Assembly: GCF_000756305.1 (NCBI RefSeq)
Contig: NZ_JRFE01000014.1
Coordinates: 525,006-589,005 of the forward strand
DNA: 64,000 nt
Direction of reading: 5' to 3'
DNA from: Myxosarcina sp. GI1
GTDB taxonomy: Bacteria; Cyanobacteriota; Cyanobacteriia; Cyanobacteriales; Xenococcaceae
The notes under the pieces are model-generated. The model did not search any database, was not told the origin of the DNA, and saw only the letters and a list, made by a program, of their open reading frames with translations. Both the position numbers and the translations under genes were made by a program. This document shows, in pieces, positions 6,973-17,752 of this stretch. Each line of letters starts with the position of its first letter. Position 1 is the stretch's first letter.

Positions 6973-9795
6973 TTATGCAGAGTATAAAAGGTTTTGCAGT
7001 TGATATACGGCTTCTTTTAGCTGGGGAATACCACCAAATTTTTCTGCTATTTCCCGCACGTTGCCATAAGATTCAAATTCGCGGTTAGCTTTAAAGGTAG
7101 TAGGCATCTCTAATTCTTTTACTCCATATTCGGCGTATTTATTCAGAAGAATTTCTAAAATCTCCCGCGCATCTTCGCCATATTGTTCAAAAAAGTCCTT
7201 CTTACGACGTTTTAAGCGTTCTACTCGTTGCTTGTAAGTTAAAACTGGCGCATCAAAAGCAATATGACAAATTAGATCGAAGGGATCGGCTTCTGGTTGG
7301 TTGGCAACTTTCTGCAACTCTTCAAAATCGATTCCTTTTTCCTCTAACAACTCAATCACTTGCGATCGCCTATCTGGATCTGCCCATTTTTGCTGTATTT
7401 CTAAAGTAGAACGATAGAGAATACGGACTTGTTCTTTGGTATAGTCAATGAGTTTAGATAGTTTTAATTGATTCTCTGCATCAGGATCGTAGATTTGTTC
7501 CTCAACGATTTCTTCTGTTCCGCCATCTACATAGTATTTGCGAGGTAATTCTTCTTCATCTGATGGTAAACCTCTAAAACCAGATTCTTCTGTATCTTCT
7601 TGTTCTTGTTCCTCTGTTTCTGGTTCAATTGCTTTTCCCTCATCATCGATTTCTGTCTCCTCAACTAAAGCTGGTTCGCCGTCAAAATCAGGGTCTTCAA
7701 ACAGAACGGTGCTTTTAGTGTAGTCGATGATATTAAAGGATATTTTGTCGTATTCTTCTCTCACTCTAGTTCCTCTGCCAATTATCTGTTTAAAATCAGA
7801 CATCGAACGAATTACACGAGCAAGCACGATATTTTTACAGGTAGGAATATCGACTCCTGTAGTTAATAACTTAGATGTCACCGCAATAATATGGGTTTTA
7901 TCCTCGACATCTTTAAAATCATCTAAATGTCCTTTACCCACAACCCCAGCATCAGATGTAATGCGAGTAATGTAATCGGCATTGTCTTTAGTAATATCTG
8001 TATTGAGATTCCGTAATGCTTTAATCATTGCCTTGACGTGTTCTTCGTCTACACAAAAGACAATGGTTTTAGCGTATCTATCCGTAGCTTTGAGAAAATC
8101 TGTCAGGTGTTGGGCGATCGCTTTAGTTCTGGCTTCCCTAACTAGTCTTTGTTCAAAATCGGGAGTTAGATATGCCTCATTGGGAATAGTCCTACCATAG
8201 CAGTCTAGTTGTCCTTCACTCGGTCGCCATCCATCTTTATCCGAACGAGTCGTAACGCGATAAACTCGATATGGTGCTAAAAAACCATCCTCAATCCCTT
8301 CTTTTAGAGAATAAGTATATAAAGGATTGCCGAAATAACGATAGGTATCGACATTATCATTTCGTAGGGGCGTAGCAGTTAACCCCAACTGATAGGCAGG
8401 TTCAAAATACTCTAAAATACTACGCCAGCTACTCTCACTCTTCGCGCTACCGCGATGACACTCATCCACAATAATTAAATCGAAGTAATCGGGACTATAT
8501 TCTTTATACAGTCCAGGGCGAAAATTATCTTCAGCGATCGCCTGATAAATTGCAAAATAAATATCTCGTCCTTTCTTAGCTTCTCTTTGAATTTTATAAA
8601 TTTTATCCTCCTCAAAAGCCGCGAAATCCTTATTCATCGGATCGTCTACTAAGATATTGCGATCGGCTAGAAATAAGATTCTCGGCGGACGGGGTTCAAA
8701 AATTGTATTCCATTTCATCCCTGTAAGCATCCAGCAAATCTGAAAAGCTACCGAAGTTTTACCCGTACCCGTCGCCATTGTTAGTAGCAGCCTTTTTTGA
8801 CCTTTAATAATTGCTGAAACAGCAGCATAAATAGCATTTCGTTGGTAGTAACGAGGTTTTTTACCAGGAGTGGGGAACATCGAAGTAACTAACTTTTCTG
8901 CTACTTCAGTCTTTATTTGTTCGTCTGCCTCCCCAGTTAATCGCAACCAAAGCTGACTCGGAGTAGGAAATGTCTCTATTACATCAGACTGTTTTCCTGT
9001 AATGAAATCAAATTCTACAATTCCCTTTCCGTTAGTAGAGTAGGCAAACTTGACCCCTAACAACTTGGCATAATCGATCGCTTTTTCTAATCCCTCGTCG
9101 GGAGTTTTGTGTTTTCTCTTTGCTTCTACTACTGCGATTGGAAATTCACTCTTATACAACAGCAAGTAATCAACAAACTTTCTTTTCCCCCGTCGCTTCC
9201 TTTTTGACTGAATCTTACCAGCAGTAAAGTAATACTGTTCTGTATAATCATGAGGTTCACTTTCCCAGAGAGCTTCCCTCAGCTTCGGTTCGACATATTT
9301 ACGGCAAGTATTAGTTTCATTACTTATGCTGGCAAACTTTTTATTTTCTAATTCCTCTACTTGCTCTATTTTTCCCATATTTGCCAGTTTCTGACGCAAT
9401 CTGCGGTGAATGCGCTCTAACCATAAAGGAATCACGGGTTGACCCGATTTGACAGACGCGATCGCATCGGAAAAATTGAACTCAGCAAATGTCAGTGTTT
9501 CGTCAGTCAAGTTACGAGAAATTGCAAATTTTCTAGTCTGTGTCGGTTTAAAAAACTCTGGTTCTTCTTTTTTGACAGCTTCCAATCCAGCAACGGCTTC
9601 TTGAAACTCCAAACCAGCAGATAGTAAATACTCCATTACTGCCAAAGATACCAAGTCATCTTCAGTATAAAAAACACTGCGTCCTTTTCCTGTGGCATCT
9701 ACCGTAGGAACAACCACTTCTTTTTCTCGCCAATACTGTAACTGTCGCAGAGTACAGCCCGTAATTTTGGCTGCTTCCTTGCTGGTAAAAAACAT
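6973..9795 (-). CDS. hsdR: Fusion of a CvkR/MerR-type repressor to type I restriction subunit HsdR
   Basis: Residues 1 to about 150 are a MerR-family regulator: a winged-helix start MFFTSKEAAKITGCTLRQLQYWREK, then a helical part. By position (divergent from cas12k, 124 bp away) and by N-terminal sequence this is the Cas V-K repressor CvkR. From about residue 155 (SNETNTCRKYVEPKLREALWE) a complete EcoEI-like HsdR follows: nuclease motif VVEAKRK (about 225), Walker A MATGTGKT (about 340), DECHRG (about 436), GLTATP (about 465) and a C-terminal EcoEI_R_C-like region. Total is 940 residues, about 150 plus a normal 790. No stop or obvious start lies at the junction. It heads the operon hsdR-hsdM-DUF433-hsdS, so the RM genes sit behind the regulator's promoter. 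Known CvkR proteins, as I recall them, are separate small proteins. Confidence 0.9.
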   Translation of the reverse strand: MFFTSKEAAKITGCTLRQLQYWREKEVVVPTVDATGKGRSVFYTEDDLVSLAVMEYLLSAGLEFQEAVAGLEAVKKEEPEFFKPTQTRKFAISRNLTDETLTFAEFNFSDAIASVKSGQPVIPLWLERIHRRLRQKLANMGKIEQVEELENKKFASISNETNTCRKYVEPKLREALWESEPHDYTEQYYFTAGKIQSKRKRRGKRKFVDYLLLYKSEFPIAVVEAKRKHKTPDEGLEKAIDYAKLLGVKFAYSTNGKGIVEFDFITGKQSDVIETFPTPSQLWLRLTGEADEQIKTEVAEKLVTSMFPTPGKKPRYYQRNAIYAAVSAIIKGQKRLLLTMATGTGKTSVAFQICWMLTGMKWNTIFEPRPPRILFLADRNILVDDPMNKDFAAFEEDKIYKIQREAKKGRDIYFAIYQAIAEDNFRPGLYKEYSPDYFDLIIVDECHRGSAKSESSWRSILEYFEPAYQLGLTATPLRNDNVDTYRYFGNPLYTYSLKEGIEDGFLAPYRVYRVTTRSDKDGWRPSEGQLDCYGRTIPNEAYLTPDFEQRLVREARTKAIAQHLTDFLKATDRYAKTIVFCVDEEHVKAMIKALRNLNTDITKDNADYITRITSDAGVVGKGHLDDFKDVEDKTHIIAVTSKLLTTGVDIPTCKNIVLARVIRSMSDFKQIIGRGTRVREEYDKISFNIIDYTKSTVLFEDPDFDGEPALVEETEIDDEGKAIEPETEEQEQEDTEESGFRGLPSDEEELPRKYYVDGGTEEIVEEQIYDPDAENQLKLSKLIDYTKEQVRILYRSTLEIQQKWADPDRRSQVIELLEEKGIDFEELQKVANQPEADPFDLICHIAFDAPVLTYKQRVERLKRRKKDFFEQYGEDAREILEILLNKYAEYGVKELEMPTTFKANREFESYGNVREIAEKFGGIPQLKEAVYQLQNLLYSA

Positions 9796-9919: not shown

Positions 9920-11906
9920 ATGAGCCAGATTACTATCCAATGTTACTTAATTGCCTCTGAATCTACCCGCAAACTTATGTGGGATATTAATGGCTGAGAA
10001 AAACACACCGTTAATCAATGAGATACTATGGCAAATAAACAATCATCCAGACTTTGACCAATGGCAGTCTGATGGAAAATTGCCTGGAAGTTTAGTTGGC
10101 GATTTATGCAAATCTCTGAAGAACGATCCGCTTTATGCAGGACAACCATCTCGGTTTTATCTGTCTGTAACCAAGTTAGTTAATTACATTTACAAATCCT
10201 GGCTCAAACTGCAGCAACGCAAACAGCGCCAACTTGAAGGAGAAGAACGTTGGTTATTGATGCTCAAAAGTGATACCGAGTTAATCAAAGAGTGCGAATG
10301 CAGTCTCGATGTTTTGCGAACTAGAGCCAAAGAAATTTTAAGCAATATAGAAACTAAGATAGAAAAAGCTAAGAAAAAGCCCAACGAAAAAGTACCAAAA
10401 AAGTCATCGCTTCTGTTCGAGCTATACGACGAATTTGAAGAGCAAGATGTTCTTACTCGTTCGGCAATATGTTACTTACTTAAAAACGGTAGCCAACTAT
10501 CCAAGCCAAATAAAGTTGAAGACAAAAAGAAATTTGCTCGGCGTCGTCGTAAAGTAGTCATTAAAATTGAAAGACTGAAAGAACAAATAGAAGGTAGTCG
10601 TCCTCATGGAAGAGATTTAACGAGCGAACAGTAGTTAGAAACTCTAATGATTGCTGCAACTACTGTTCCCAAAGACAATAAAGAAGCTCGTATTTGGCAA
10701 GATAAACTTTTAACCAAACCCAAATCTCTACCTTTCCCGATAACTTTTGAAACCAATGAAGATTTGAAGTGGTCGAGTATTGATAAACGGTTTTTGATTT
10801 GGCTAATATTCTTTTTTAGCATTAAAAATCAATTTGGATTTTCACTATTATTTTTGCGCTTATCTTCTTATCTCAATAGTCAACGCGACCGCTTATTTGT
10901 CAAATTCAATGGATTGAGTCAACATAGATTCCAAATATACTGCGATCGCAGGCAGCTATATTGGTTTCAACGCTTCTTAGAAGACCAACAAATTAAGAAA
11001 GAAGGCAAAAATAGTCACTCAAGCGGTTTGTTTATCCTTCGTTCGGCACAACTATCTTGGAGAGAAGATAAGAAAAAAAATACGGGCAAACCTTGGAATG
11101 ACAATCGCCTAGTTTTATTCTGTACTGTAGATACCAGATTTTGGTCGGCAGAAGGAACACAAGTAGCTAGAGAAGAAAAAAGGGCTAAAATTCTTAAGAC
11201 CATCGATAACATGAAGAAAAAAGGCGAGTTAACTGCTAATCAGCAAGCCTTTGTTCAAAAAAAACACACTACATTAGCTAAACTACACAATTTATTCCCT
11301 CGTCCATCTCGTAAACTCTACCAAGGCAAAGAAAATATAGTTCTTGGTGTAGCGATGGGTTTGTCAAAGCCAGCTACAGTCGCTATTGTTGATGGCAATA
11401 CAGGTAAGGCGATCGCCTTTCGTAGCATCAAACAATTATTGGGCAAAAACTACAGATTACTCAATCGCCAAAGACAACAGAAGCAAGCTTTATCTCGCCT
11501 GCGTCATAAAGCCCAAAAACGGGCATCTGATAACCAAAAAGGCGAATCTAACTTAGGTGAATATGTAGATCGATTGATTGCTAAAGCCATTGTGAAATTA
11601 GCCAAAGAGTATCAAGCAAGCGCGATCGCCGTTCCGAAAATTGAAGATATGAGAGAAATTGTTCAAAGTGAAATCAAAGCTAAAGCAGAGGCTAAAATTC
11701 CTGGCTATGAAGAAGGACAAAAGAAATATGCCAAGCAGTATCGAATCAACATTCATAACTGGAGTTACGGTAGATTAATTGAAAACATTACGAATCAAGC
11801 TAGTAAATCAGGTATTGCGATCGCCGAAGTCAAACAATCCGTACGCGGTAGTCCAATGAAAAATGCTTTAAGCATAGCGATCGCGTTTTATAATAAAAAC
11901 ACTTAA
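9920..11906 (+). pseudogene. cas12k: Cas12k, RNA-guided target-binding effector of V-K CAST, multiply broken
   Basis: Cas12k is the nuclease-inactive effector that binds tracrRNA-crRNA and the GTN-PAM target. The N terminus MSQITIQCYLIASESTRKLMW starts at ATG 9920. An extra base, probably in GGG 9981-9983, shifts the frame so that it ends at TGA 9995-9997, while the rest continues in the other frame as MAEKNTPLINEIL. An in-frame TAG at 10632-10634 stands where relatives have a tryptophan codon before LETL. After NEDLKWSSID about 35 hydrophobic residues are inserted before RLFVKFNGL (about 10785-10890), a place where relatives have almost none. Downstream the RuvC-like part (LGVAMGLSKPATVAIVD, HKAQKRA, LIAKAIVKLAKEYQASAIAVPK, AKQYRINIHNWSYGRL) reads open to the stop. 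A full protein cannot be made by ordinary translation. Confidence 0.93.
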
Positions 11907-11945: not shown

Positions 11946-11947
11946 AC

Positions 11948-12175
11948 AGTGCCGCAGTTCATGTTTTAAACCTCTGAACTGTGAAAAATGTGGGTTAGTT
12001 TGATTATTGAAAGATAATCCTGCTTTCTGACCCTAGTAGCTGCTCACCCTGATGCTGCTGTCTACAAACAGGAATAAGGCGCACTCCCAGCAAAAAGGGC
12101 GCGGGTCTACTGCTGTAGTGGCTACTGAATCATCCTCGATCGAGGGGAAATCCTTTCTCACGCTTGGTTTGAGGC
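11948..12175 (+). ncRNA. tracrRNA 1 of V-K CAST
   Basis: The region keeps the conserved V-K tracrRNA blocks in order: GCCGCAGTTCATG, CCTCTGAACTGTG, GGGTTAGTTTGA, TGCTTTCTGACCCT, GTAGCTGCTCACCCTGATG, CTCCCAGCAA, GTAGTGGCTACTGAATCA. A hairpin (CCTCGATCGAGG) follows, then the anti-repeat AATCC-TTTC (12149-12157). This pairs with GAAA-T-GGATT of the array repeat (12381-12390) leaving one bulged T, the same arrangement as in the Scytonema system. The ends are estimates. The 118-codon open frame that overlaps it (12052-12408) is not a gene. Confidence 0.92.
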
Positions 12176-12358
12176 TTTGGGAATCGGCTTTTTTAACGAG
12201 TCGTACCGCGCAAACTTCAAAACCATTATTATGTATAGATTGTGGCTATTTTTCAAGTCAAGTATTTTTGACACCTATGACTGAAATGGACTTTTTATCT
12301 TGGTACCGCGCAAGTTGCGATCGAAAGGACTGCTGTATCAAGCTTTTAAGTTGCCGCT

Positions 12359-12469
12359 GTCGCAATTTACTTTTAGCGATGAAATGGATTGAAAGCTGTT
12401 TTGACTAAGTCCAGGTTGACCGAGTCGCCATTGTCGCAATCTACTTTTAGCTATGAGCGATCGCAGCAA
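12359..12469 (+). CRISPR. Minimal V-K CRISPR array: one repeat, one 37-nt spacer, one degenerate repeat
   Basis: The repeat at 12359-12395 is 37 nt, begins GTCGCAATTTAC and ends GGATTGAAAG, the usual V-K 3' end. The spacer is 12396-12432. The second repeat begins at 12433, exactly 74 bp after the first, and agrees at 22 of its first 24 bases, but its 3' part has decayed (no TTGAAAG). A GATCGAAAG at 12319-12327 may be a remnant of an upstream repeat, but the rest does not match. The target of the spacer is not in this window as far as I can see. Confidence 0.8.
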
Positions 12470-12524
12470 CACAATTCAGTTGTTTTATTAAATAAATACC
12501 TAGTTATCAACAATTAAAAAAAAT

Positions 12525-12750
12525 CGCGCCGCAGTTCATGCTTTGAAAAGCCTCTGTGCTGCGAAAAATGTGGGTTAGTTTGATTGTCTAAAGACGATCT
12601 TGCTTTCTGACCCTGGTAACTACTCGCCCCGATGCTGTTTCTAATTCAATTAGAAAGAATAAGGTGCGCTCCCAGCAATAGGGGTATGGGTTTACTATAG
12701 TAGTGGTTGCTGAATCACCTTCGAGCAAGAAGGATTTTTGCTTATTTGAT
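12525..12750 (+). ncRNA. tracrRNA 2, a second diverged copy
   Basis: This is a second full set of V-K tracrRNA blocks about 580 bp after the first: GCCGCAGTTCATGC, GGGTTAGTTTGATTG, TGCTTTCTGACCCTGG, GGTGCGCTCCCAGCAATA, GTAGTGGTTGCTGAATCA. It differs from tracrRNA 1 at many positions, mostly in helices. The hairpin CCTTC-GAGCAA-GAAGG (12718-12733) precedes an anti-repeat GATTTTTGCTTA. That sequence does not fit the array repeat well but can pair with the truncated repeat of the homing guide (AAAATT at 12776-12781 and TAAC at 12771-12774). This suggests it serves the homing guide. Confidence 0.88.
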
Positions 12751-12770
12751 TGACATTTAGTCAAGTTGAG

Positions 12771-12804
12771 TAACTAAAATTTGAAAGAATCGATTGGTTG
12801 TAGG
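12771..12804 (+). CRISPR. Delocalised truncated repeat plus homing spacer aimed at tRNA-Asn
   Basis: A short repeat remnant (TAACTAAAATTTGAAAG, 12771-12787) keeps the TTGAAAG end and is followed by AATCGATTGGTTGTAGG (12788-12804). The tRNA-Asn gene sense strand (minus strand 12943 to 12927) has AATCGATTGGTCGTAGG, so 16 of 17 match. The single difference gives a U-G wobble between guide and target strand. The three bases before the protospacer are GTT (12946-12944), a valid GTN PAM. Beyond 17 nt the match stops. V-K CASTs are known to use short guides placed between array and transposon end to home to tRNA genes. Confidence 0.9.
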
Positions 12805-12820
12805 AACTGAATGGTTCAAC

Positions 12821-12883
12821 GACAAATTATTTGTCAAGACGACAATAATTTGACAACGGTGACAAATAATGTGGCAATCGACA
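12821..12883 (-). repeat. CAST transposon end with three TnsB-type binding sites
   Basis: Sites GACAAATTATTTGTC (12821-12835), GACAATAATTTGACA (12841-12855) and GACAAATAATGTGGC (12861-12875) are spaced exactly 20 bp apart, and the element ends ACA at 12881-12883 (TGT reading outward-in). On the minus strand the layout lines up over about 65 bases with the end called LE in the Scytonema CAST, as I remember that sequence. The outermost site is the least regular, as usual for terminal sites. The boundary is accurate to about 1-2 bases. Confidence 0.85.
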
Positions 12884-12906: not shown

Positions 12907-12978
12907 CTCCCCAGGTAGGATTTGAACCTACGACCAATCGATTAACAGTCGACCGCTCTGCCGCTGAGCTACTGAGGA
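12907..12978 (-). tRNA. tRNA-Asn (anticodon GTT)
   Basis: The minus strand folds as a 72-nt tRNA. The acceptor TCCTCAG pairs with CTGGGGA (one G-T pair), the D arm is GCTCAGCGGCAGAGC, the anticodon loop CTGTTAA holds GTT, and the T arm is GTAGGTTCGAATCCTAC, with discriminator G. CCA is not encoded. Its 3' end is 23 bp from the CAST end, and its anticodon-to-T-arm segment is the homing target. The transposon sits downstream of the gene, so the tRNA is left intact. Confidence 0.97.
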
Positions 12979-17122: not shown

Positions 17123-17752
17123 TTAAGCTACCTCTCCATCAAACAAACTGTACCAAACTCTCTCTATACCTCTAGTTCCCGTACAGAATAACAGCTTGCG
17201 TAATAAACTTAAAGCTAACTCGTTCAACTCTGCTTCCGAGCCTATGTACGCCGATACTTTAGCCCTTCTAGCATTCATCCGACTGCGAAAATGAGCGCGA
17301 AATCTGGCACAATATTCTGCCAGACGAAAATGATTTTCCAGAGGCAGTTGTTTGGCTCTCATTTGTTGTTCGGCAATTAATAACTGTCTGATTATGACTA
17401 CTAACTCTTTAGCACGATAGTTAGCCAAAATCATCAAAGCTTTTGCTTCGTCCAAACTTAAAGAATCCCGCGTATAAGAACGTCGCCAGGGATTGCTACG
17501 GCGCAAACGCCAAAAGACTACTCTATTTTTAATAATTTCCTCAATTTTTAACTGTTTTGCCGTAGCTAACATCTTTTCAGAAGCCCCCAACTCTAGAGCC
17601 TCAATAGCTAATAAGAGTAGATCGATTTGTTGTTGGGTGTGAGGCGAACAACCACGCGCTGGCAGGGCAATATCGGGTAAGGAATTTAAAATTGCTGGTT
17701 CCTTAGCGATCGCTGGCTGAAAATCGGATGTTGTGCTTGCGGATTGACTCAT
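17123..17752 (-). CDS. DUF3038-family cyanobacterial protein
   Basis: A 209-residue soluble, helix-rich protein with LPDIALPARGCSPHTQQQIDLLLLAIEAL, VVFWRLRRSNPWRR and LSLDEAKALMILANYRAKELVVIIRQL, the DUF3038 signature. It is the first gene of a two-gene unit with the DUF4335 gene. Function is not known. Confidence 0.85.
   Translation of the reverse strand: MSQSASTTSDFQPAIAKEPAILNSLPDIALPARGCSPHTQQQIDLLLLAIEALELGASEKMLATAKQLKIEEIIKNRVVFWRLRRSNPWRRSYTRDSLSLDEAKALMILANYRAKELVVIIRQLLIAEQQMRAKQLPLENHFRLAEYCARFRAHFRSRMNARRAKVSAYIGSEAELNELALSLLRKLLFCTGTRGIERVWYSLFDGEVA

Follow-up and report, generated by a model that had tools for sequence, protein, structure and literature searches.

Homing of type V-K CASTs uses a delocalized crRNA that consists of a truncated repeat (R*) and a 17-nt anchor spacer, as described in three papers (PMC9938897, PMC8730458, and PMC11406308). 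The origin of this crRNA is called unclear in a 2024 review (PMC11656645). Published V-K homing elements carry cas12k together with tnsB–tnsC–tniQ, a tracrRNA after cas12k, 37-nt repeats, and a truncated repeat with a 17-nt spacer by the left end, whose target in a tRNA gene has a GTN PAM; the element described here has all of these features. In the plan as published, a single tracrRNA stands apart from R*, an arrangement that is usual but not obligatory; this element has two tracrRNA copies, the second of which lies between the array and R* and is fused to R*. Unlike the published form, its R* is also devoid of the array-type pairing segment.

Natural single-guide RNAs are known for Cas9 systems, as cited in PMC8730458. 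They resemble the RNA proposed here in that the tracrRNA and guide are part of one natural RNA, but the effector is a different one and their role is regulatory, not transpositional. The engineered single-guide RNA of ShCAST (used in PMC9876797) likewise has the 3′ end of the tracrRNA joined to the end of the crRNA repeat, followed by the spacer; it is man-made, whereas the natural form carries hairpin sequences of its own and a homing spacer of 17 nt. The literature that we searched names one natural single-guide RNA, in Cas9 systems, and none for a transposon, and among the papers listed on natural single-guide RNAs none dealt with Cas12k. To our knowledge, natural single-guide RNAs are rare, and in Workman's 2021 work in Cell the Cas9 example was reportedly a longer form of the ordinary tracrRNA, with no duplicate joined to a homing repeat. 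A fused guide in a CAST is not described in the searched literature, which excluded Saito 2021 and Hsieh and Peters 2021, so that priority is provisional; nor are fused guides described in the passages covered from the V-K reviews and a 118-element survey. Truncated repeats with short spacers are already known to serve homing; the tracr–R* fusion seems to be new within the limits of the same literature.

Results

A decayed type V-K CAST with two tracrRNA copies

We analysed a 64,000-nt stretch of DNA from Myxosarcina sp. GI1 (NZ_JRFE01000014.1, positions 525,006 to 589,005; hereafter, the window), which carries a type V-K CAST beside a tRNA-Asn gene, with both tracrRNA copies inside the element. 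The gene order tnsB, tnsC, tniQ is that of a type V-K CAST: tnsB lies directly upstream of the window, split over two frames, followed by tnsC (99–1007, + strand; Pfam TniB/AAA_22) and tniQ (1007–1504, +; Pfam TniQ). Around positions 17580–17650 of the locus L007, tnsB is broken and contains extra sequence, after which reading resumes in another frame. The Cas12k effector gene (9920–11906, +) was identified by its sequence and by NF038191 matches to both of its halves; its frame is broken by a frameshift near 9978, close to the gene start, and by an in-frame TAG at 10632–10634. The window copy is a fossil and, with both tnsB and cas12k broken, could act only with help in trans. These breaks may also be assembly errors.

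Starting from cas12k, the order of parts is tracrRNA 1, mini-array, tracrRNA 2, truncated homing repeat, anchor spacer, left end, and tRNA. As is typical of type V-K CASTs, the 37-nt repeat and the tracrRNA lie downstream of cas12k on the same strand. The array-type tracrRNA 1 (11946–12159, +) precedes the mini-array (12359–12456), which comprises one 37-nt CRISPR repeat (12359–12395, +), a sole 37-nt spacer (12396–12432, +), and a degenerate terminal repeat (12433–12456, +). tracrRNA 2 (12523–12743, +) belongs to the fused-type clade described below. The GAAAG end of the homing repeat (12783–12787, +) leads into the 17-nt anchor spacer AATCGATTGGTTGTAGG (12788–12804, +), which matches tRNA-Asn at 16 of 17 positions. 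Its protospacer (12927–12943) and GTT PAM (12944–12946) are both on the − strand within the tRNA-Asn (GTT) gene (12907–12978, −), the attachment site. The left end (12805–12883, +) finishes with TGTGGCAATCGACA at 12870–12883, an inverted copy of which forms the right end at L007 position 3427. The PAM is about 61 nt from the left end, inside the range of 46–82 nt given in PMC9938897. One right end and one left end bound an element of about 27.5 kb, and its flanks, AGAAC and AGGAC, are a possible target duplication with one change. At gathering thresholds, Rfam returned the tRNA as the sole match.

Pairing of the two tracrRNA copies in trans

A first-pass annotation of this DNA had claimed two tracrRNAs whose anti-repeats fit different repeats. 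Both copies are present: a tracr profile search gave 197 bits at 11946–12159 and 191 bits at 12523–12743, and the duplication is visible as ungapped repeats of 90 and 73 nt with 83% and 77% identity. The letters of the two proposed pairings were also found. In tracrRNA 1, whose 3′-end anti-repeat is AATCCTTTC, AATCC-TTTC can pair with GAAA-T-GGATT of the repeat at 12359–12395, and in tracrRNA 2, GATTTTTGCTTA (12733–12744) can pair with TAACTAAAATT of the homing repeat (from 12771).

The same annotation had held cross pairing to be poor, which our duplex folding bore out for the first copy and less so for the second. tracrRNA 1 favoured the array repeat in 10 of 10 two-copy elements, by a mean of 7.6 kcal/mol, while tracrRNA 2 favoured the homing repeat in 8 of 10, by a mean of just 1.5 kcal/mol. 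In the window itself, tracrRNA 2 paired better with the full 37-nt array repeat than with the homing repeat (−10.1 versus −5.5), albeit out of register. With a preference this weak and pairing out of register, a case built on trans pairing would not stand by itself, and we set aside trans duplex energies as the main argument because they are not decisive for tracrRNA 2. This bears on the possibility that the element has two trans-acting tracrRNAs, each for its own crRNA, with tracrRNA 2 stopping at a T-run and the homing crRNA being made separately. The difference in pairing specificity between the copies speaks for such an arrangement, but the size of the preference of tracrRNA 2 speaks against it.

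A putative fused homing guide in the window

In the window, the tracrRNA 2 anti-repeat and the truncated homing repeat are only 26 nt apart and the linker between them is self-complementary, so that the tracr, the homing repeat, and the 17-nt anchor spacer can form one RNA. The minimum-energy fold of 12520–12804 contains a linker hairpin (12733–12782, +) between the tracrRNA 2 arm (12733–12744) and the homing-repeat arm (12771–12782), a hairpin that is found at the same place and in the same register in relatives. The whole RNA had a folding energy of −82.2 kcal/mol (z −3.1), and an isolated 54-nt segment had a z of −2.4. A CTTTC partner for the GAAAG end is kept within tracrRNA 2. The tracr and crRNA parts are therefore contiguous and able to pair in cis, as in a natural single-guide RNA. 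Judging from the sequence, tracrRNA 2 is most likely the 5′ part of such an RNA, which is a better reading than a second trans-acting tracrRNA; tracrRNA 2, R*, and the spacer would be transcribed as one RNA, and this fused RNA would load Cas12k and serve homing.

The end of tracrRNA 2 also carries a terminator-like stem with a T-run (12718–12739), at which transcription of the window copy could stop short of the homing repeat; if termination there were efficient, this copy would yield a plain tracrRNA, as two trans-acting tracrRNAs would need. The T-run is, however, absent from copies such as those of G003, G038, and G153.

Fused homing guides in related genomes

We collected Cas12k loci from 27 genomes of the family and by scanning 84,980 species, where 80 of the 101 loci were retained. 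For tracr DNA, we searched 388 genomes from the order and 386 from the phylum. A homing guide was defined as a tracr profile match with a downstream GAAAG and a 17-nt spacer whose match has a GTN PAM. Among 87 distinct homing guides, 17 were fused and 70 separate: the distance from the tracr end to GAAAG was 8–39 nt in the fused guides and 182–1217 nt (median 569) in the separate ones, and no guide among the 87 had an intermediate distance. Additional fused cases outside the 17 were G066, a second G039 copy, G121 (a 17/17 match to tRNA-Phe, PAM GTG), and two Crocosphaera loci (L065 and L087) with a longer linker. A plasmid collection gave one weak tracr match and no fused guide.

The tightest fusions are minimal hairpins of down to 17 nt, for example AATTCTC-TTT-GAGAATT-GAAAG in G106, and hairpins of this kind make a separate crRNA implausible. 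With the parts at most 39 nt apart in every fused case of the 17, and with no room for a crRNA promoter in G106-type hairpins, we consider it unlikely that two trans-acting tracrRNAs explain the arrangement. The fused guide is also unlikely, to a still greater degree, to be a regulator that is bound by Cas12k and merely occupies the tRNA or represses a promoter. Regulatory natural single-guide RNAs have a precedent in Cas9 systems (reference in PMC8730458), but the targets here are attachment tRNAs with a GTN PAM and normal left-end spacing, as for the anchor spacers known from PMC9938897.

Ten two-copy elements share the same order of parts. In L065 and L087 (7899–8380), another order is seen: the fused guide comes immediately behind cas12k, and a 3′ fragment of a tracr follows, ahead of the array. 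Hyella (L153) and G121 (L199) have a fused guide, and tracrRNA 1 was not found in the stretches examined; L199 also lacks an array in the interval from the guide to the tRNA. These two loci are possibly homing-only CASTs.

Of the 17 fused guides, 14 start at the T-loop of the tRNA (GTT PAM followed by C[AG]A[AG]TC), compared with 9 of the 70 separate ones. The spacer of G004 resembles a serine tRNA but lies beside tRNA-Asn and matches at only the 12 PAM-proximal bases, so that a T-loop seed may let elements change their tRNA.

Arm complementarity and covariation in the fused guides

The linker helix starts 0–2 nt past the terminal tracr stem and stops 0–2 nt before GAAAG. It keeps the register in which AATCC and GGATT ordinarily pair, and several types of pair occur at positions 2, 5, and 6. 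The first-pass annotation had suggested a comparison of related CASTs for paired changes, and such changes were found: the arms covary and pair better with their own partner than with the partners of other elements (−5.5 versus −2.2 kcal/mol), with a permutation p of 5e-5 for all arms and again for 12 non-redundant arms, p-values that overstate independence because the sequences are related. Against the model, several AT-rich arms (those of Xenococcus, G020, and Hyella) are not predicted to form a stable helix by themselves. In a ten-sequence alignment of the fused RNAs, 22 of 56 predicted pairs showed a compensatory change. Of 16 fused copies, 15 keep an internal CTTTC that could pair with GAAAG, and the remaining one has CTTTT. 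The array-type GGRTTGAAAG, by comparison, occurs in 57 of the 70 separate guides versus 1 of the 17 fused guides.

Origins of the fused copies

A tree built from 100 tracr copies places the fused ones at no fewer than three separate positions, which points to at least three independent origins. Group A comprises Xenococcaceae and a Prochloraceae MAG; support there was 1.0 for the fused copies, 0.73 for their array-type partners, and 0.93 for the union of the two; the corresponding values in group B (G039, G106, G153, and G200) were 0.995, 0.987, and 0.94, and G066 and G138 have the same fused type as group B. In group C, the G038 pair had a support of 0.97, and of 0.87 together with Crocosphaera; this G038 pair may owe its form to gene conversion. 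Each copy type in groups A and B forms its own lineage, which fits two maintained functions and not a random duplicate. The split into two guide channels put forward in the first-pass annotation is well supported by the common order in the ten elements and by these separately supported clades in two lineages; what needs revision is the second channel, which most likely uses no second trans-acting tracrRNA but a tracrRNA fused in cis to R* and the spacer.

Some 10 nt upstream of the group B fused copies in L158, L161, L162, and L163 lies a TATAAT box that is common to them all. The region around it differs from that upstream of their tracrRNA 1, which suggests a separate promoter for the fused copies. 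Unbroken cas12k matches were obtained for the two-copy elements of G038, G106, and the Prochloraceae MAG. The G106 element looks intact from its sequence, with tnsB, tnsC, tniQ, a MerR gene, and cas12k all matched without interruption in a stretch of about 9 kb.

The same genome as the window carries other CASTs. A V-K CAST on contig C24 has an unbroken cas12k and a single tracrRNA; its array contains six repeats, and its homing repeat lies at a distance, at tRNA-Ala. The approximately 2.6 kb between its array and homing repeat (L008) include what looks like a group II intron that carries a reverse transcriptase gene. CAST remnants are present at tRNA-Phe and tRNA-Ser. In the latter (L009), only the 3′ end of a tracr is left; a homing repeat adjoins it, followed by a spacer that mismatches the tRNA at three positions.

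Such remnants, and the decay of the window element, would suit the view that tracrRNA 2 is left over from a second, tandem CAST, which the first-pass annotation had named as its main alternative, or that it is a non-functional local tracrRNA duplicate. We rejected the tandem-CAST remnant, since no transposon-end sequence lies between the array and tracrRNA 2 and the arrangement recurs across species. Together with the order common to the ten two-copy elements, the copy-specific clades, the covarying arms, and a fold conserved with compensatory changes, this makes a remnant or a chance duplicate very improbable.

Discussion

We consider it very likely that one Cas12k is served by two guide systems, namely a dual guide for the array and a natural single-guide RNA for tRNA homing. 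In the first, tracrRNA 1 would pair in trans with crRNAs from the CRISPR array. In the second, a short hairpin would link the 3′ anti-repeat of the duplicated tracrRNA in cis to the truncated homing repeat with its anchor spacer of 17 nt, and the fused guide would load Cas12k for the tRNA gene with no need of a separate crRNA. Homing would probably gain from this by being freed from competition with array crRNAs for tracrRNA. With somewhat less confidence, we favour the broader view that V-K CASTs convergently evolved homing-dedicated natural single-guide RNAs at least three times, by tracrRNA duplication and fusion to the homing repeat. This would have split homing from the array pathway, left the homing repeat free to diverge, and allowed elements with a fused guide only.

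If true, a two-part RNA for the array and a one-part RNA for homing would give a physical basis for two transposition pathways by one effector, and the effect of guide format on homing efficiency or specificity becomes testable. Fused guides also bear on the origin of the delocalized crRNA, the question raised in PMC11656645, and offer naturally tuned, compact single guides for Cas12k tools.

Finally, a 940-aa ORF in the window element (6973–9795, −) combines a MerR domain and a type I restriction R subunit in one frame (Pfam MerR_1, ResIII, and EcoEI_R_C). The MerR domain sits where the CAST repressor gene cvkR would, in the same orientation, and the fusion might tie transposon control to a restriction system.
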